Positions 10,166-41,753 of a stretch of DNA of 64,000 nt are shown here, piece by piece (position 1 is the stretch's first letter; each line of letters opens with the position of its first letter). The position numbers were made by a program, and so were the translations under genes. Source of the DNA: Synechococcus sp. WH 8020 (lineage in GTDB: Bacteria > Cyanobacteriota > Cyanobacteriia > PCC-6307 > Cyanobiaceae); NCBI RefSeq assembly GCF_001040845.1, contig NZ_CP011941.1, positions 304,963 through 368,962 of the forward strand, read 5' to 3'. The notes beneath the pieces are model-generated. The model had not been told where the DNA came from, did not search any database, and was given only the letters and a program-made list of their open reading frames with translations.

Positions 10166-10356
10166 CCCGCACCATCTGCGCATTCGCCGTCGGTTTCACA
10201 CCGGCCGCCTGGATCGGCTGGGAGGCCAGCCCCAGTTATGTCGAGAAGGACGGCGTCCTGCGTGAACCATTCGCGCTGATTCCTCTCGGTGGAGCGGCGG
10301 CAATGACCACCGCTGCCACCGGTGCTTACCTGCTCATCAAGAAGGCACGCTCATGA
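10162..10356 (+). CDS. Small membrane protein, paralogue of 18952 (64 aa)
   Basis: Hydrophobic N-terminal (ICAFAVGFTPAAWIGWEASP) and C-terminal (AAMTTAATGAYLLIKKARS) segments surround a short loop with PSYVEKDGVLREPFAL. The copy at 18952 is nearly identical. ATGA overlaps on both sides tie it to its secreted neighbours. The fixed pairing of this gene with the secreted family suggests a joint role. Confidence 0.7.
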   Translation: MTRTICAFAVGFTPAAWIGWEASPSYVEKDGVLREPFALIPLGGAAAMTTAATGAYLLIKKARS

Positions 10357-10703
10357 TCCGCACTACCCTCACCGCCATCACGTCTGCTGCAGCACTCTTT
10401 GCAGTGAGCGAGCCGCTTGATCCACCTGTCGCTCAAGCCGACACCGTCAGAGGCGCTCTCTGTGAGCTGTCACGCCATGACGACTCCATCCCGATGGAGG
10501 ACTTCACCTGCTCCTTCACTCAGATGCAGGGCAACGTCTACATCGACAGCAACCGCTGGGCGTTCAAGTTTCCCTCTGCTGAGCAGGGCAAGACCTACGA
10601 GCGCCAGAACACCGAAGACTTCAAGCGTTTCACTCGTGAGGGGCAATACACGCTGACCGTCTACGAGTCAGGCAAGAAGCCATACGAGCCAGGCGGTTAT
10701 TGA
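10353..10703 (+). CDS. Small secreted protein of the same family (116 aa)
   Basis: The signal peptide MIRTTLTAITSAAALFAVSE matches that of 19143 closely. The mature part keeps the family landmarks: two Cys (ALCELS, FTCSFTQ), NRWAFKFPSAEQGK and FTREGQYTLTV. Third gene of the operon; a hairpin followed by T lies about 100 nt downstream. Confidence 0.7.
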   Translation: MIRTTLTAITSAAALFAVSEPLDPPVAQADTVRGALCELSRHDDSIPMEDFTCSFTQMQGNVYIDSNRWAFKFPSAEQGKTYERQNTEDFKRFTREGQYTLTVYESGKKPYEPGGY

Positions 10704-10920: not shown

Positions 10921-11009
10921 GTTTGTTGGTGAGTCTTCCCAAGGCTATTCAGAGCTGGCGATCACTTCCGACCAAGGATTTCACTCCACTCCAATGCATC
11001 AGGACCACC

Positions 11010-11034
11010 AGCAAAGCTGAAACTACCCACTGCA
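11010..11034 (+). repeat. Island leader element, isolated short copy
   Basis: AGCAAAGCTGAAAC followed by TACCCACTGCA, the first part of the leader found before the barrel genes, here beside the inverted 240-nt block. Confidence 0.6.
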
Positions 11035-11040
11035 ATAGAC

Positions 11041-11284
11041 AAAAGAAAACCCCGCCAAAGGCAGGGTCTCTCGGCTTCTTTTTGGGCGTGTTGCCTAGTT
11101 TCCACTCCGTGAAGAAGCCCTCCTCACAGATGAATAATGCTTCAGAAATCCTACTGAGCAAGTCCCTTCGTATCAGTTGATTGACTGTTCTGCGGAATTT
11201 CCTCAACATGTGCTCGGCCAACTCCTCACAAGGTTTGGCTCCTCACACCCCCCGAAGAAGGCTTAGTCGCCTTCTTTTTTATGC
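11041..11284 (-). repeat. 240-nt block, inverted copy of 41128-41366
   Basis: This block and the one at 41.1-41.4 kb are highly similar in opposite orientation. Each is bounded by a hairpin-plus-T terminator at both ends, facing outward. The minus strand carries an open frame containing LAEHMLRKF, VNQLIRRDLLS and CEEGFFTEWKLGNTP. The other copy has LAEHILRRF and the same core. Several differences are silent or conservative, which hints at a translated protein. The plus strand carries the RNA candidate listed next. Confidence 0.6.
11217..11280 (+). ncRNA. Candidate Yfr1-like small RNA
   Basis: A 5' hairpin (GCCAA / TTGGC) whose loop contains ACTCCTCACA is followed by an unpaired CTCCTCACACCCCCC and a terminator hairpin AAGAAGGC / GCCTTCTT plus T-run. 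Yfr1 of picocyanobacteria has two stem-loops around an unpaired ACUCCUCACAC motif, so the architecture fits. The genuine yfr1 locus normally lies near trxA/guaB, so this would be an extra copy or a mimic. Confidence 0.4.
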
Positions 11285-11368
11285 CTTGACTCATCCTTTC
11301 GAGTGAATGAATGGGTCTCTACCCGTATGGGGGATGTGATTGCTGGGAGATGCGATTACTTTTTGGAA

Positions 11369-11650
11369 ATGACCAGAACAGACGCACAAAAGGAACTTGA
11401 GCGAATCGAGCAGGAGCTGAATGCCAAAGCTGCTCCACCAGCAGATGAAAGCCGCATTGCAATGGTCAACCGAAAGCAGCCGCATTTGGATGCAGTGCTG
11501 ATTGGCGTTATTGCTCTACTTGCTGCATCGTTCCTTCTTCCAATCATCAAGTCATTGAATAATGAAAATATCGATTCGCTTAGTGCTGGCACTCTCGGTG
11601 GTGCCATTGGGCTGGCAGTCGGCTATGGGATAGGTCGCATTCGAAAATGA
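11369..11650 (+). CDS. Membrane protein with glycine-rich second helix (93 aa)
   Basis: A charged helical N-terminus (TDAQKELERIEQELNAKA) precedes two membrane helices (AVLIGVIALLAASFLLP; LGGAIGLAVGYGIGRIRK). The ATG at 11369 has GGAA just upstream. An upstream in-frame ATG at 11303 is possible but less likely. Function unknown. Confidence 0.55.
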   Translation: MTRTDAQKELERIEQELNAKAAPPADESRIAMVNRKQPHLDAVLIGVIALLAASFLLPIIKSLNNENIDSLSAGTLGGAIGLAVGYGIGRIRK

Positions 11651-11719: not shown

Positions 11720-11992
11720 GTGATGTGGCAGCAGCAGCCTGATTACGCCCGATACAAGGAGAAGCTCAACGGTGAGGGCTGGCTGGTCAACAGGCAAGAA
11801 GGGATGCTCTTGCAGATCAAGCCCGACACACCAACGCAACATGCACAGTTCGTTCTGGTGAGCTACTACCACTTGTCAGCTCGCATTGGGAAACCTGTTA
11901 GGCAGCAGCGGATGCTCAGACACCTAGGCATCGAGATGTGGATCAACCTTCAGAAGATTGGTTGGGAACGCTGCTTAGCTCCTCAGAACTGA
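11720..11992 (+). CDS. Island repeat-family protein, W type, least damaged copy (90 aa)
   Basis: Begins MWQQQPDYARYKEKL and continues with GWLVNRQEGMLLQIKP and MLRHLGIEMWINLQK. At least six damaged or partial copies occur in the island (32.8, 33.0, 37.6, 39.8, 45.4 and 52.2 kb). Homology with some copies extends upstream of this ATG to about 11690. No known domain; Trp-, Gln- and Arg-rich. Confidence 0.5.
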   Translation: MMWQQQPDYARYKEKLNGEGWLVNRQEGMLLQIKPDTPTQHAQFVLVSYYHLSARIGKPVRQQRMLRHLGIEMWINLQKIGWERCLAPQN

Positions 11993-12475: not shown

Positions 12476-13630
12476 ATGCTGCGTCGTCTCTCCCTGGGGC
12501 TTTTGGCTTCTGCCATTTCTGTTGCTTCTCTACCTGCCATTGCGCAAGAGGGCAGTGCTGATGAGCTTGGTGTGATGAGCATCAGCCTTAAGGATGTGGT
12601 CAAGCCCACCTTTGGTTTTCAAGGTGCGTTGCAGGGCGCTGGTACACCAAACCAAGCAGGTATTGGTGGCTTCCTGCCTCTCTCTGTTGGAAACAACAGT
12701 GTTTGGTTTCTTGATGTCCTCGCTAACGCTAATTTCGCTGATTACGAGAACAACAGCAGCATCATCAATACCGATGTCGCTGGGACCACGATCAGCACCT
12801 CATCACGGCTTGGTTATCGCTGGCTCAATGGAGACCGCAGTTGGATGTACGGGTTGAATGCTGGTTATGACAGCCGCCCGATGAATACAGGCGGAACCGA
12901 TACCGGCATCAATGTGAGCGGCACAGAGGAGAGTGCATTCTTCCAGCAGGTGGCAGTCAACGCAGAAGCAGTTTCCAATGATTGGAACCTCAATGCTTAT
13001 GCCTTAATTCCGATTGGTGATACCGAGCAAGATCTCAACTTCTTTTATCAAGGCGGTGCACTCAACACCTACGGGCTTGATGTTGGTTATTTCATCACTC
13101 CTGAGCTGAATGCTTCTGTTGGTTACTACTATCAAAATGGTGATCTTGGATCTGCTGATGGTTCTGGTGTGCTCGGACGAGTTGCCTATGAAGTCAGTAG
13201 TGGCATAACAGCAGGAGTGAATGTCTCCTACGACGAGGCATTCGATACGCGGGTTTCTGCAGACCTTAAAGTACGTTTTGGCGGTGCAAGTACAACAGCA
13301 CAGCGCAAAGAAGTTCAGCAGCTACCTGTCATCAATGCCCTAACATCAACTCCAAGCAATAGAATTGTGCGTGTGCATGACGCGACTAAAAATTCCTGCC
13401 TTGTATTCACCAGTGTCCTCGGAAAAGGAAATATTGAGGCAGATGTTGGCTTAGACGCTATTATTGTTGGAGGCAAATGTCCACCGGAAAGCGAGAGAAC
13501 CGATCCAAACTTAAGATACGATGAAAGACCATTGTCAGCTGCCCAAATCATCAAGCTATGCACAACCAAATTTTCACAACCGGGCGCCAGCCAATATTGC
13601 TCTCTTCCTGATGTGTTTGGAAAATCGTAG
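12476..13630 (+). CDS. Outer-membrane beta-barrel with variable C-terminal tail, copy 1 (384 aa)
   Basis: A signal peptide (MLRRLSLGLLASAISV to AIAQE) precedes a barrel of about 270 residues. The barrel has the short alternating strands and MYGLNAGYDSRPM / SRLGYRW patterns that resemble the inverse-autotransporter (intimin/invasin) translocator, and ends TRVSADLKVRFGG. A linker to VHD (residues 300-302) is conserved in all four copies. The 82-residue tail from ATKNSCLVF on is unique and contains four Cys; the barrel has none. The outer-membrane location is well supported; the autotransporter role and surface display of the tail are inference. It could instead be a plain porin with a C-terminal extension. 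Confidence 0.75.
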   Translation: MLRRLSLGLLASAISVASLPAIAQEGSADELGVMSISLKDVVKPTFGFQGALQGAGTPNQAGIGGFLPLSVGNNSVWFLDVLANANFADYENNSSIINTDVAGTTISTSSRLGYRWLNGDRSWMYGLNAGYDSRPMNTGGTDTGINVSGTEESAFFQQVAVNAEAVSNDWNLNAYALIPIGDTEQDLNFFYQGGALNTYGLDVGYFITPELNASVGYYYQNGDLGSADGSGVLGRVAYEVSSGITAGVNVSYDEAFDTRVSADLKVRFGGASTTAQRKEVQQLPVINALTSTPSNRIVRVHDATKNSCLVFTSVLGKGNIEADVGLDAIIVGGKCPPESERTDPNLRYDERPLSAAQIIKLCTTKFSQPGASQYCSLPDVFGKS

Positions 13631-14965: not shown

Positions 14966-16036
14966 ATGCTCCGTCATCTCTCCCTGGGGATTTTGGCTTC
15001 TGCCATCTCTGTTGCTTCTCTGCCTGCCATTGCTCAAGAGGACGGTGGTGCTGATGACCTTGGTGTGATGAGCATCAGCCTGAAGGATGTGGTCAAGCCC
15101 ACCTTTGGGTTTCAAGGGGCGTTGCAGGGTGCTGGCACGCCTAACCAAGCAGGTATTGGTGGCTTCCTTCCACTGTCTGTCGGCGACAACAGCGTCTGGT
15201 TTCTTGATGTCCTCGCTAACGCTAATTTCGCTGATTACGAGAACAACAGCAGCATCATTAACACCGATGTCGCTGGCACCACCATCTCAACCTCATCAAG
15301 GCTTGGTTACCGCTGGCTGAATGGTGACCGCAGTTGGATGTACGGGCTGAATGCTGGTTATGACAGCCGCCCAATGAATACAGGTGGAACCGATACCGGC
15401 ATTCCGTTGTTTGGAACAGAAAAGAGTGCTTTCTTCCAGCAGGTGGCAGTCAATGCAGAAGCGGTCTCCAATGACTGGAACTTCAATGCTTATGCCTTAA
15501 TGCCTATAGGTGATACCGAGCAAGATCTCAACTTCTTTTACCAAGGAGGTGCACTCAACACCTACGGGCTTGATGTTGGTTATTTCATCACTCCTGAGCT
15601 GAATGCTTCTGTTGGTTACTACTATCAAAATGGTGATCTAGGTACGGCTGATGGATCTGGTGTTCTCGGACGAGTTGCCTATGAAATCAGCGACGGATTA
15701 ACAGCTGGAGTCAACATCTCCTACGACGAAGCATTCGAGACAAGAGTTTCAGCTGATCTTAAAGTTCGATTTGGCGGTGCAGCTACAACAGCACAGCGCA
15801 AACAAGTTCAACAGCTACCTGTCATATCTGCATTAACATCATCGCCAAGCAATAGGAACGTGAGGGTGCATGATGATCTACAGTTTAAATGTTTTGTCGG
15901 TGGTGTATCTGTTGTACAAACTCTTGTCAGAAGTGGTTCAAATTTTGAGCAAGACCTTTCCTCATTCGTAAGAATTTGCAGAGCATGGCGCGGAGTCGTA
16001 AGTATATCGAATGACAAACTACCAGAGGATGCCTGA
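14966..16036 (+). CDS. Outer-membrane beta-barrel with variable C-terminal tail, copy 2 (356 aa)
   Basis: Signal peptide and barrel are nearly identical to copy 1; a visible barrel difference is a loop reading GIPLFGTEKS where copies 1 and 3 read GINVSGTE. After the conserved VHD (residues 301-303) the 53-residue tail, DLQFKCFVGGV onward, is unrelated to the others and has two Cys. A conserved 50-nt sequence follows the stop by 18 nt and reappears behind copies 3 and 4. Confidence 0.75.
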   Translation: MLRHLSLGILASAISVASLPAIAQEDGGADDLGVMSISLKDVVKPTFGFQGALQGAGTPNQAGIGGFLPLSVGDNSVWFLDVLANANFADYENNSSIINTDVAGTTISTSSRLGYRWLNGDRSWMYGLNAGYDSRPMNTGGTDTGIPLFGTEKSAFFQQVAVNAEAVSNDWNFNAYALMPIGDTEQDLNFFYQGGALNTYGLDVGYFITPELNASVGYYYQNGDLGTADGSGVLGRVAYEISDGLTAGVNISYDEAFETRVSADLKVRFGGAATTAQRKQVQQLPVISALTSSPSNRNVRVHDDLQFKCFVGGVSVVQTLVRSGSNFEQDLSSFVRICRAWRGVVSISNDKLPEDA

Positions 16037-23110: not shown

Positions 23111-24262
23111 ATGCTGCGTCATCTCTCCCTGGGGATTTTGGCTTCTGTCATCTCCATTGCTTCTCTGCCTGCCATTGCTCAAGAGGGCAGTGGTGCTGAT
23201 GACCTTGGTGTGATGAGCATCAGCCTGAAAGATGTGGTCAAGCCAACTCTTGGCTTTCAAGGAGCACTGCAAGGAGCAGGCACACCGAATCAAGCCGGTA
23301 TTGGTGGGTTCTTGCCCCTCTCTGTTGGAGACAACAGCGTCTGGTTTCTTGATGTCCTCGCTAACGCTAATTTCGCTGATTACGAAAACAACAGCAGCAT
23401 CATCAATACCGATGTGGCTGGTACAACCATCAGCACCTCATCACGGCTTGGCTATCGCTGGCTGAATGGTGACCGCTCTTGGATGTACGGGCTGAATGCT
23501 GGTTATGACAGCAGGCCGATGAATACAGGTGGAACCGATACAGGCATCAATGTGAGCGGCACAGAGAAGAGTGCGTTCTTCCAGCAGGTGGCTGTCAATG
23601 CAGAAGCGGTCTCCAATGACTGGAACTTCAATGCTTATGCCTTGATGCCTGTTGGTGATACCGAGCAAGATCTCAACTTCTTTTACGAAGGCGGTGCACT
23701 TAACACCTACGGGCTTGATGTTGGTTATTTCATCACCCCAAAGCTGAATGCTTCTGTTGGTTACTACTACCAAAGCGGTGATCTGGGATCTGCTGATGGT
23801 TCTGGTGTACTCGGGCGGGTTGCTTATGAGATCAGCAGTGGCTTAACAGCAGGAGTGAATATCTCTTACGACGAGGCATTTGATACAAGAGTTTCAGCAG
23901 ACCTTAAAGTGCGATTTGGTGGTGCAAGCACAACAGCGCAACGCAAAGAAGTTCAACAACTACCTGTAATCAATGCCTTAACATCAACACCAAGCAACCG
24001 AGATATCAGAGTGCACGATGAGTGCAAAAGATCACTAGATGTCAAAAAAGATTGTAGAGAAGTTTGCATTGGGGGTTTCTTTTTCCTTGGCTTGGAAAGT
24101 GCTTGCACGGGACGAACCGAAGAACAAAGACCGACTTGTACTGGCTCTGGTGCTGACACGGCGTGCGGTTTCACGAACAAAGAAAATCTGGAAGCAGCTG
24201 GACAGCGCGGTTTCGAGTGCGGTGCTTTTGACTCGGCGTGCCGAGCGCGGAATGACGAGTGA
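23111..24262 (+). CDS. Outer-membrane beta-barrel with variable C-terminal tail, copy 3 (383 aa)
   Basis: Signal peptide and barrel match copies 1 and 2 closely through VHD (301-303). The 80-residue tail, starting ECKRSLDVKKDCREVC, is unrelated and holds eight Cys, mostly in small spaced pairs (FECGAFDSAC), like a small disulfide-rich domain. The end of the tail is bordered by short duplicated DNA segments, so its exact terminus may have shifted recently. Confidence 0.75.
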   Translation: MLRHLSLGILASVISIASLPAIAQEGSGADDLGVMSISLKDVVKPTLGFQGALQGAGTPNQAGIGGFLPLSVGDNSVWFLDVLANANFADYENNSSIINTDVAGTTISTSSRLGYRWLNGDRSWMYGLNAGYDSRPMNTGGTDTGINVSGTEKSAFFQQVAVNAEAVSNDWNFNAYALMPVGDTEQDLNFFYEGGALNTYGLDVGYFITPKLNASVGYYYQSGDLGSADGSGVLGRVAYEISSGLTAGVNISYDEAFDTRVSADLKVRFGGASTTAQRKEVQQLPVINALTSTPSNRDIRVHDECKRSLDVKKDCREVCIGGFFFLGLESACTGRTEEQRPTCTGSGADTACGFTNKENLEAAGQRGFECGAFDSACRARNDE

Positions 24263-25274: not shown

Positions 25275-26213
25275 ATGTTGCGTCGTCTCTCCCTGGGGCT
25301 TTTGGCTTCTGCCATCCCTCTTGTTTCTCTACCTGCCATTGCTCAAGAAGAAGGAGGTGCTGATGAACTTGGCGTGATGAGTATCAGCCTGAAGGATGTC
25401 GTCAAGCCAACCTTTGGGTTTCAAGGAGCATTGCAAGGCGCTGGTACACCGAATCAGGCAGGCATTGGTGGCTTCCTGCCTCTCTCTGTTGGCGAGAACA
25501 GCGTCTTCTTCTTTGATGCATTGGCGAACGTCAACTTCGCTGATTCCGGCAATGACAGCAGCATCATCAATACAAAAGTTGCTGGCACCACGATCAGCAC
25601 CTCATCACGGCTTGGTTATCGCTGGCTGAATATTGATAGATCCTGGATGTATGGGCTGAATGCTGGTTATGACAGCAGGCCTATGAATACAGGTGATGCT
25701 GATGTAGGAGTCAACGTCAGCAATGAGCGCAGTGTGTTCTACCAGCAGTTTGCCTTCAACGCGGAAGCAGTCTCTGACAGCTTGAACTTCAATGCTTATG
25801 TCTTGTTTCCTATTGGCGATAGCGAGCAGCAGCTTAACAATGTCTTTGATGGGGGCTCACTTGATACTTACGGGCTTGATGTTGGTTATTTCATCACTCC
25901 AGCGGTGAATGCTTCTGTTGGTTATTACTACCAAAAGGGTGATTTAGGAAGTGCTGATGGTTCTGGTGTGCTCGGGCGGGTTGCTTATGAGATCAGCAAT
26001 GGCTTAACGGCTGGAGTTAATATCTCCTACGATGAAGCATTCGAGACCAGAGTTTCAGCTGATTTAAAAGTACGCTTTGGCGGTGCTAGTACAACATCGC
26101 AGCGCAAACAAGTTGAACAACAACCTGTGATCAATGCCTTGAAATCAACACCAAACAATCGGGACGTACGGGTGCACGATTGCTGCTGGGATGATGATGC
26201 AGAAGATGATTAA
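25275..26213 (+). CDS. Outer-membrane beta-barrel with very short tail, copy 4 (312 aa)
   Basis: The most divergent barrel of the four, with changes clustered in probable loops (GDADVGVNVSNERS, NNVFDGGS), but the same strands and the same end (VRFGGASTT ... RVHD, 300-302). The tail is only ten residues, CCWDDDAEDD, with two Cys and a very acidic end. The conserved 3' border follows about 45 nt after the stop. Confidence 0.75.
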   Translation: MLRRLSLGLLASAIPLVSLPAIAQEEGGADELGVMSISLKDVVKPTFGFQGALQGAGTPNQAGIGGFLPLSVGENSVFFFDALANVNFADSGNDSSIINTKVAGTTISTSSRLGYRWLNIDRSWMYGLNAGYDSRPMNTGDADVGVNVSNERSVFYQQFAFNAEAVSDSLNFNAYVLFPIGDSEQQLNNVFDGGSLDTYGLDVGYFITPAVNASVGYYYQKGDLGSADGSGVLGRVAYEISNGLTAGVNISYDEAFETRVSADLKVRFGGASTTSQRKQVEQQPVINALKSTPNNRDVRVHDCCWDDDAEDD

Positions 26214-40987: not shown

Positions 40988-41127
40988 ATCGTGTCAATGG
41001 GCGCTTTATACCGCTGATTGCGCATCGGGCAAGCCTGAAACATCAGGCCTTCATGTTCTTCAACTCAACTCTTGCTTGTGAAAGTACCGCAGGCTGGGCT
41101 CTTGAAATGGGGCGAGCCATGGCATAA

Positions 41128-41366
41128 AAAAAGAAGGCGACTCAGCCTTCTTTGGGGGGTGTAAGGAGCCAAACTTGTGAGGAGTTGGCAGAGCACATCC
41201 TGAGAAGATTCCACAGATCAGTCAATCAACTGATACGAAGGGACTTGCTCAGCGGGTTTTCTGAGGCATTATTGACTTGTGAGGAGGGCTTCTTCACGGA
41301 GTGGAAACTAGGAAACACGCCCAACGAGAAGCCGAGAAACCCTGCCTTTGGCGGGGTTTTCTTTTG
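41128..41366 (+). repeat. 240-nt block, inverted copy of 11041-11284
   Basis: Bounded on the left by a hairpin with A-run (a terminator for leftward transcripts) and on the right by CCTGCC...GGCGGGG with T-run. The plus strand has an open frame (41152-41415) with LAEHILRRFHRSVNQLIRRD and CEEGFFTEWKLGNTP. The match to the other copy ends at both terminators. Confidence 0.6.
41131..41189 (-). ncRNA. Candidate Yfr1-like small RNA, second copy
   Basis: On the minus strand: GCCAA / TTGGC hairpin, then CTCCTTACACCCCCC and terminator AAGAAGGC / GCCTTCTT with seven T. The unpaired motif carries one change (CTCCTTACAC) compared with copy 1. Confidence 0.35.
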
Positions 41367-41390
41367 CCTAATCGCATCCATCAAAGCTGA

Positions 41391-41414
41391 AACTCATGAC
41401 TGCATAGTCAGCTG
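41391..41414 (+). repeat. Truncated leader element before the nuclease gene
   Basis: TCAAAGCTGAAACT ... GACTGCATAGTCAGCTG, directly joined to the nuclease ATG. Confidence 0.5.
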
Positions 41415-41753
41415 ATGCTCCTAGCTGCCATTGCCTCTGTCTTCATCGCCTCCTGCTACGACGGTGATACTTGCCTTACAAGTAGAGGAGAAAAGATCAG
41501 GCTTGCCTGCATTGACACTCCAGAACTGAGAGGCAAACGTGCTGATCCAGTCCCTGCAAAAGCAGCCAGGGACTATCTACGGAACTTGGTGGTTGGGCGC
41601 AATGTCGTCATCCGGCGCATCAGCACTGGCCGGTATGGCCGCACGGTGGCCGAGCTATTCGTGAATGGCTCAAACGTGCAACAGCAACTGGTGGCTGCTG
41701 CCCATGCAGAGATTGATTGGAAGTACGCCCACCAATGTCCTTGGGCGCGATAA
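41415..41753 (+). CDS. Thermonuclease-like (SNase) protein (112 aa)
   Basis: Short hydrophobic start (LLAAIASVFIASC), then SNase landmarks: CYDGDTC (calcium Asp), IRLACIDTPELRGK (catalytic Arg and Asp) and RYGRTVAELFVNG (second Arg). Compact but with all key residues. Likely secreted or a lipoprotein; degrades DNA or RNA. Confidence 0.8.
   Translation: MLLAAIASVFIASCYDGDTCLTSRGEKIRLACIDTPELRGKRADPVPAKAARDYLRNLVVGRNVVIRRISTGRYGRTVAELFVNGSNVQQQLVAAAHAEIDWKYAHQCPWAR

Follow-up and report, generated by a model that had tools for sequence, protein, structure and literature searches.

The 64,000-nucleotide stretch of Synechococcus sp. WH 8020 DNA analyzed here, referred to below as the window, carries in duplicate a block of about 250 bp that is probably a head-to-head pair of small-RNA genes, one for a Yfr2-family RNA and the other for a Yfr10-type RNA of about 68 nt which displays the Yfr1 pairing motif twice and whose main role would be to titrate Yfr2. 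The two copies of the block, A and B, are homologous and 90% identical, and the outer edges of two terminators form their borders. The features of the window referred to in the text are the following.

11041–11069, minus strand: terminator hairpin and U run of the Yfr2 gene of copy A (Yfr2-A), from fold and sequence
11069–11133, minus strand: Yfr2-family sRNA of copy A (Rfam RF01701, Cyano-1), 56.1 bits against a gathering score of 41
11120–11128, minus strand: 5' anti-motif UGUGAGGAG of Yfr2-A, from sequence
11174–11187, plus strand: dyad CAGTTGATTGACTG over the putative −35 element of the bivalent RNA, copy A, from genome-wide exact matches
11213–11281, plus strand: bivalent Yfr1-motif RNA, copy A, putative ends; 95.7 bits at 11215–11282 with model R1, whose training set includes this copy
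11217–11240, plus strand: stem-loop 1 of the bivalent RNA, with the loop motif CUCCUCACA at 11222–11230, from fold and alignment
11239–11248, plus strand: linker motif CUCCUCACAC, from sequence, with 25 of 27 aligned relatives having it exactly
11254–11281, plus strand: terminator of the bivalent RNA, from fold and alignment
11720–11992, plus strand: DUF1651 ORF (Pfam PF07864, E = 3.7e-6)
12476–13630, 14966–16036, 23111–24262, and 25275–26213, plus strand: barrel-like secreted paralogues, from sequence
41124–41193, minus strand: bivalent RNA, copy B, putative ends, from fold; 88.6 bits at 41124–41191 with R1, of whose training set it is likewise a member
41219–41232, minus strand: dyad CAGTTGATTGACTG, copy B, from genome-wide exact matches
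41273–41337, plus strand: Yfr2-family sRNA of copy B (Cyano-1), 54.2 bits against a gathering score of 41
41337–41365, plus strand: terminator of the Yfr2 gene of copy B (Yfr2-B), from fold

An earlier, sequence-only reading had described two stem-loops around a near-Yfr1 motif, the last of them a terminator, and a second copy on the opposite strand with one base of the motif changed. Sequence and fold confirmed both descriptions. CTCCTCACACCCCCC lies between two stem-loops at 11217–11281 (+), the second of which is an intrinsic-terminator hairpin with a U run, and the inverted copy B, at about 41124–41193 (−), has CTCCTTACAC in its linker, one base different from copy A. The minimum free energy (MFE) of the fold was −22.2 kcal/mol for copy A (z, −3.66) and −19.5 for copy B (41129–41198; z, −2.96), and in each case 1 of 200 shuffles was equally good. 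The pattern CTCCTCACA-N(3-15)-CTCCTYACAC occurred twice in the window and in none of 100 dinucleotide shuffles. In both copies, the rest of the block turned out to be occupied by an RNA of the Yfr2 family, encoded on the other strand at a distance of about 82 bp and directed outward. Its membership in the family is clear, as both arms exceed the gathering score of Cyano-1, which we take to be Rfam's name for Yfr2, and both carry the conserved 5' motif UGUGAGGAG and a conserved central loop (GGAAACUAGGCAAC in A, GGAAACUAGGAAAC in B). Since the second terminator of the block belongs to this opposite-strand RNA, the two sRNA genes of each block are arranged head to head.

The Yfr2 strand also has an open frame of 87 to 90 aa in both copies (10949–11221, −; 41152–41415, +), which the sequence-only reading had weighed as the possible real gene. 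It is stop-free over 55 codons in 9 of 24 distinct blocks. A stop falls within those 55 codons in the other 15, a frameshifting indel lies inside the frame in 11 of the 24, the TTG starts differ in place between A and B, no Pfam match was obtained for the frame, and the Cyano-1 match sits within it. A real protein gene on this strand, judged from the sequence, therefore appears unlikely; the wider proposal, that a small protein is what the block encodes and that the RNA features are coincidental, we consider most improbable.

The Yfr1 pairing motif occurs twice in the RNA of the other arm, in the loop of stem-loop 1 and in the linker preceding the terminator. In copy A the linker, lying between stem-loop 1 and the terminator hairpin, carries CUCCUCACACCCCCC; copy B has an intact loop motif (41176–41184) and the linker motif CUCCUUACAC (41159–41168). 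The loop motif is partly covered by three pairs in the MFE fold of A and is mostly open in that of B. Conservation was assessed in an alignment, A3, of 27 rows (25 distinct) sharing the stem sequence of the window copies, which we call type I. The linker motif was exact in 25 of these rows, the loop motif in 18, and both in 17, so that the exact loop motif is lost in 9 rows and the exact pair is missing in 10, copy B included; part of the rows came from motif searches, and the counts therefore favor the motif. One pair of stem 1 is changed from C-G to U-A in 7 of the 25 distinct rows. The resulting seven cells changed on both sides were not reached in any of 500 shuffles, but the covariation is limited to one pair, and 481 of the 500 shuffles also gave one pair. 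The same layout is found in the genus on other stems (GTTGG/CCAAC, GATCAAC/GTTGATC, and GGAAAGC/GCTTTTC), so four different stem sequences (types I to IV) share the bivalent layout, which does not imply common descent.

A3 and the covariation count were restricted to type I because a joint alignment of 35 rows (A2) had misplaced the stems of types II to IV. A3 leaves out the degraded loci L011 and L016, six rows of other stem types, and later copies (e.g., L106 and L135–L142); L067/L096, cut by a contig end, is in neither alignment, and L077 equals L072 over the stretch used. In three loci (L044, 1253–1563; L048, 1124–1561; L050, 1238–1561), two RNAs of the bivalent type form a tandem whose first member has an altered loop motif (CUCCUGACA) and differs in its upstream region.

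Upstream of the bivalent RNA lies a dyad that overlaps TTGACT, a candidate −35. The sequence CAGTTNNTTGACTG has three exact occurrences in the genome, upstream of copies A, B, and D, the three copies scoring above 85 bits with R1, while a reversed control of the dyad had no occurrence in the genome. Of 33 distinct loci picked by a motif-like expression, 23 had the shorter form CAGT-N6-ACTG at 43 to 44 nt before stem-loop 1. The dyad and its fixed spacing are, at the sequence level, the best evidence here that the bivalent RNA is a gene.

The pair of about 250 bp is not only duplicated within the window but also dispersed across the genome. In copy D (1026934) the dyad and the two motifs are retained, while the neighboring Yfr2 scores only 36 bits; copy C (551281) lacks both the U run and the loop motif; copy E (670995) has a changed linker and lies 633 bp from its Yfr2; copy F (1671510) has lost both motifs; and at G (1689479), H (1942597), and a site at 1024131 there is a Yfr2 without a clear partner. 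With intact, damaged, and Yfr2-only copies coexisting, both gain and decay of the unit are visible in one genome. All copies might then be decaying duplicates, i.e., functionless pseudogenes of a once-useful pair left in islands, and C, E, and F, which are plainly broken, would fit this, as would the changed linker motif of B and the low score of the Yfr2 beside D. Such a reading has to contend with copy A, whose two motifs, terminators, and dyad are all present and whose Yfr2 exceeds the gathering score, with the two motifs and the dyad of D, with the change in B, which still allows a G-U pair with Yfr2, and with the recurrence of linker, stem, and dyad across genomes, and we regard it as rather unlikely.

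The distribution of the pair was determined in 31 genomes of the genus with R1, a model built from A3, at E ≤ 0.01. The search returned 68 matches in 22 of the 31 genomes, from 0 to 7 per genome, a count that includes weak matches near 28 bits, some of which are probably chance or decayed. Within 700 bp, a Yfr2 stood head to head with the match in 37 of the 68 cases, and in 33 of these the two were 79 to 87 bp apart; of the remaining matches, 6 were tail to tail, none was in the same direction, 18 lay beyond 700 bp, and 7 were on contigs lacking Yfr2. The same genomes had 103 Yfr2 matches, 40 with and 63 without an R1 neighbor within 700 bp. The numbers of R1 and Yfr2 matches per genome were correlated (Spearman 0.78 for n = 31 and 0.75 for the 24 genomes at least 90% complete, kinship being ignored). 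Six of the 24 well-assembled genomes had no R1 match, and each of these had two Yfr2. The MED4 counterparts are described in part of PMC2518516 as co-directional with their Yfr2-family neighbors, against the head-to-head layout found here, so that the linkage may predate the orientation.

The double motif is largely confined to the genus. The pattern CTCCTCAC-N(3-17)-CTCCTCACAC was present in 18 of 24 genus genomes versus 1 of 275 others of the order, the sole match outside the genus being a tandem repeat of CTCCTCAC, and of 201 genomes of the family, the 8 that had a longer pattern with a 9-nt first motif all belong to the genus. Carriage by phages found no support, as the double-motif pattern had no match in viral contigs. 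An exact scan of named genomes, from which records near the window's genome may be left out, gave 25 stretches: 7 in marine Synechococcus, 3 on contigs filed as other marine bacteria, 8 in Fischerella arrays, and 7 scattered. Fifteen of the 25 (L053, L056, L057, L060–L065, L068–L070, and L074–L076) were judged to be simple repeats, chance, or non-marine and did not enter the alignment. Three MAG contigs labelled Phycisphaerae, Gammaproteobacteria, and Crocinitomicaceae (L058, L059, and L066) bear the picocyanobacterial sRNA block and are probably mis-binned. The Fischerella stretches (L060, L061, L063–L065, L068, L069, and L076) consist of CTCCTCACAC-like units repeated in short tandem arrays. 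These could be simple repeats or, in the event of their transcription, could act by titrating Yfr2. The window's own genome had 13 phycobilisome-domain matches, in keeping with a Synechococcus-type genome and not with Prochlorococcus.

The class to which the sequence-only reading had assigned the RNA did not hold up, while the motif-bearing RNA gene and its duplicated, inverted block did. The Yfr1 covariance model (RF01116) gave no match up to E = 10 around copy A or B, and of five matches in a Yfr1 search of the own genome none fell at the window copies, where the RF01116 cut-off was not reached. The only Yfr1 over the cut-off in this genome is at C1:447098–447154 (67.7 bits), and exactly one Yfr1 was present in each of the 31 genus genomes. 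The published Yfr1 descriptor, as given in part of PMC2190773, requires an exact ACUCCUCACAC in the linker; our re-implementation accepted the true Yfr1 and rejected both A (GCUCCUCACAC, first motif base G) and B (GCUCCUUACAC, with one further change against ACUCCUCACAC). By covariance model and strict descriptor together, Yfr1 membership of the window copies is ruled out. Among 35 relatives of the window RNAs, 8 nevertheless passed the strict descriptor, which, when relaxed to a 10-mer, accepted copy A and 30 of the 35 rows, though not copy B, which counts against a sharp Yfr1 border.

These passes, and the Yfr1 architecture of the window RNAs (a 5' stem-loop, a single-stranded motif in the linker, and a 3' terminator hairpin), speak for a further explanation, namely, that the gene is an extra Yfr1-like repressor of mRNAs that duplicates Yfr1 function and has Yfr2 as an incidental neighbor. 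The missing covariance match, the absence of the exact 11-mer from both copies, the 43 of 68 R1 matches that have a Yfr2 in opposed orientation within 700 bp, and the single copy of Yfr1 proper in all 31 genomes speak against it, and we hold it to be improbable. According to passages in PMC6778093, Yfr1 displays its motif in the linker and Yfr10 in a hairpin loop. The window RNA agrees with the Yfr10 type in having the motif in a hairpin loop and a gene that adjoins a Yfr2-family gene, and it departs from that type in orientation, none of the 68 R1 matches being co-directional with a Yfr2 within 700 bp. As far as its sequence allows a placement, the bivalent RNA appears closer to the Yfr10 class than to Yfr1.

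The 5' tail of Yfr2 is complementary to both motif sites, each of which, in copy A, is predicted to pair with Yfr2-A over 9 nt. The predicted net energy with Yfr2-A after opening was −8.4 kcal/mol for the loop and −8.5 for the linker versus −12.4 for Yfr1. Relative to the free RNAs, the predicted complexes of copy A gained 10.3 kcal/mol at 1:1 and 20.6 at 2:1, values calculated without non-cognate controls. The changed linker base of copy B could still form a G-U pair with Yfr2. In copy B (41124–41337), 12 nt of the loop region are complementary to the Yfr2 of the same copy, versus 9 in A, and this is the strongest among the seven loop pairs listed, the linker motif being weakened to G-U. No pair-specific coevolution was found: among 25 of 43 pairs, with near-duplicates removed by eye and copy A outside the set, permuted partners did at least as well as the own partner in 507 of 5,000 permutations for the loop and in 3,371 of 5,000 for the linker.

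The sequence-only reading, which states that Yfr1 represses porins in Prochlorococcus, had singled out the position of copy A beside outer-membrane barrel genes as potentially significant. Among the Yfr1 targets, PMM1119 and PMM1121 are named in the part of the literature consulted. The proximity is real, as downstream of copy A come an ORF that includes hydrophobic stretches (11303–11650), the DUF1651 ORF, and then four barrel-like proteins; the regulatory link is not borne out. Pairing of the linker motif, the only one that the null covered, with the four barrel leaders scored −9.1, −9.6, −13.3, and −9.1, no better than 1,000 random windows (mean, −11.7; standard deviation, 3.7). The best leader match, −21.3, lies just downstream of A and reaches the 1% point of the null, but 28 leaders were tested and the start used (11362) is out of frame with the ORF at 11303–11650, and we do not count it. 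Elsewhere, a barrel gene was found near the bivalent block of genome G075 (L080) and the Yfr2-only site of genome G207 (L083), mostly within flanks of about 1.5 kb, in which only two bivalent-RNA loci stand beside barrel genes. Repression of adjacent barrel genes as the main role is accordingly very improbable.

Several further observations concern these flanks. The four barrel-like paralogues share an N-terminal part of about 305 aa (81 to 93% identical) and have, by eye, unrelated C-terminal tails, which looks like tail diversification; in the two that were scanned, an inverse autotransporter barrel (IAT_beta) was found below the cut-off only. A DUF1651 ORF follows the bivalent RNA by no more than about 35 nt in four loci from other genomes (L059, L079, L080, and L093). 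The ORF at 11303–11650 (+) is related (82.5% over 80 aa) to a sequence at L005 (1853–1614), which lies on the opposite strand beside a Yfr2-only copy of the same genome, as if the flank of copy A had been rearranged. Beside copy B, an SNase-like nuclease ORF (41415–41753, +) has relatives beside other Yfr2 copies (L006, L097, and L005) of the window's genome and of one other genome, and a small protein to the left of A (10353–10703, +), secreted-looking by eye, has relatives near other units (L005, L093, L095, and L100).

In the mechanism that we favor, one arm of the block would make a Yfr2-family RNA and the other the Yfr10-type RNA of about 68 nt, each motif of which would pair with the 5' UGUGAGGAG tail of Yfr2, over 9 nt in the case of the window's own Yfr2s. 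As each motif can pair with that tail, one molecule could hold two Yfr2s. The bivalent RNA would titrate Yfr2 and in turn be titrated by it, and the titration of Yfr2 would free or replace Yfr1 on mRNAs bearing the complement, the targets being common with Yfr1. The dyad, unique in the genome to copies of the bivalent RNA, would set its dose separately. This role is transferred by analogy from MED4 work on relatives, in which, as described in part of PMC6778093, Yfr2 binds Yfr1 and Yfr10 and counteracts both; the same source calls Yfr1 and Yfr2 almost universal in cyanobacteria. The two-site titration is favored by the Yfr2 scores, the head-to-head layout, the copy-number correlation, the motif conservation, the four stem types, the predicted complexes, the dyad at three of three sites, and the broken opposite frame. 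It is opposed by the single-site pairing, weaker than that of Yfr1, by the lack of coevolution, the motif losses, and the thin covariation, and by the 6 of 24 genomes with Yfr2 but no R1 match and the 63 of 103 Yfr2 that are unpaired. More tentatively, the whole might be a genus-specific antagonist module, in which a two-site anti-Yfr2 RNA and Yfr2 share one divergent promoter region in a cassette of about 250 bp that is copied through islands, its ratio evolving by copy number and the dyad operator while Yfr1 stays single copy. An RNA with both motif displays beside its likely partner, at 0 to 7 matches per genome, would offer a natural dosage series for mutual titration, and its features may explain why searches with a Yfr1 model miss such RNAs.

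Among known systems, the pair looks like a genus-specific, copied variant of the Yfr1/Yfr2/Yfr10 regulatory RNA network, amplified in one genus. A Yfr10 with two motifs was not found in the literature searched, though one may still be published. The opposite arm of the block is a Yfr2 family member, with the 5' motif and loop as described for Yfr2, whereas the bivalent RNA is not a member and has Yfr2 as its likely binding partner. With Yfr1 (RF01116) it shares a similar length and the single-stranded linker motif, flanked by a 5' stem-loop and a terminator; it differs in its G, not A, at the first motif position, its second motif in the loop, its lack of a model match, its multiple copies, and its place beside Yfr2. 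The Yfr10, Yfr12, and Yfr18 RNAs of MED4 carry the Yfr1 motif (mutated in Yfr12) and their genes directly adjoin Yfr2-family genes, Yfr10 binding Yfr2, according to passages in PMC2518516 and PMC6778093. The window RNA resembles them in bearing the motif outside Yfr1 and beside the Yfr2 family, with a hairpin-loop display as in Yfr10. As far as these passages describe them, the MED4 RNAs have one motif each, co-directional genes, and a Yfr10-Yfr2 precursor that can be common, unlike the bivalent RNA with its two motifs, head-to-head genes, and several dispersed copies per genome. Yfr104 of Prochlorococcus MIT9313, named in part of PMC6778093 as a further sRNA with the Yfr1 motif, is alike in that respect by its description, the level at which the two were compared. 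Set against both Yfr1 and Yfr10, the window RNA combines their two displays of the motif, in the linker and in the hairpin loop, in one molecule.
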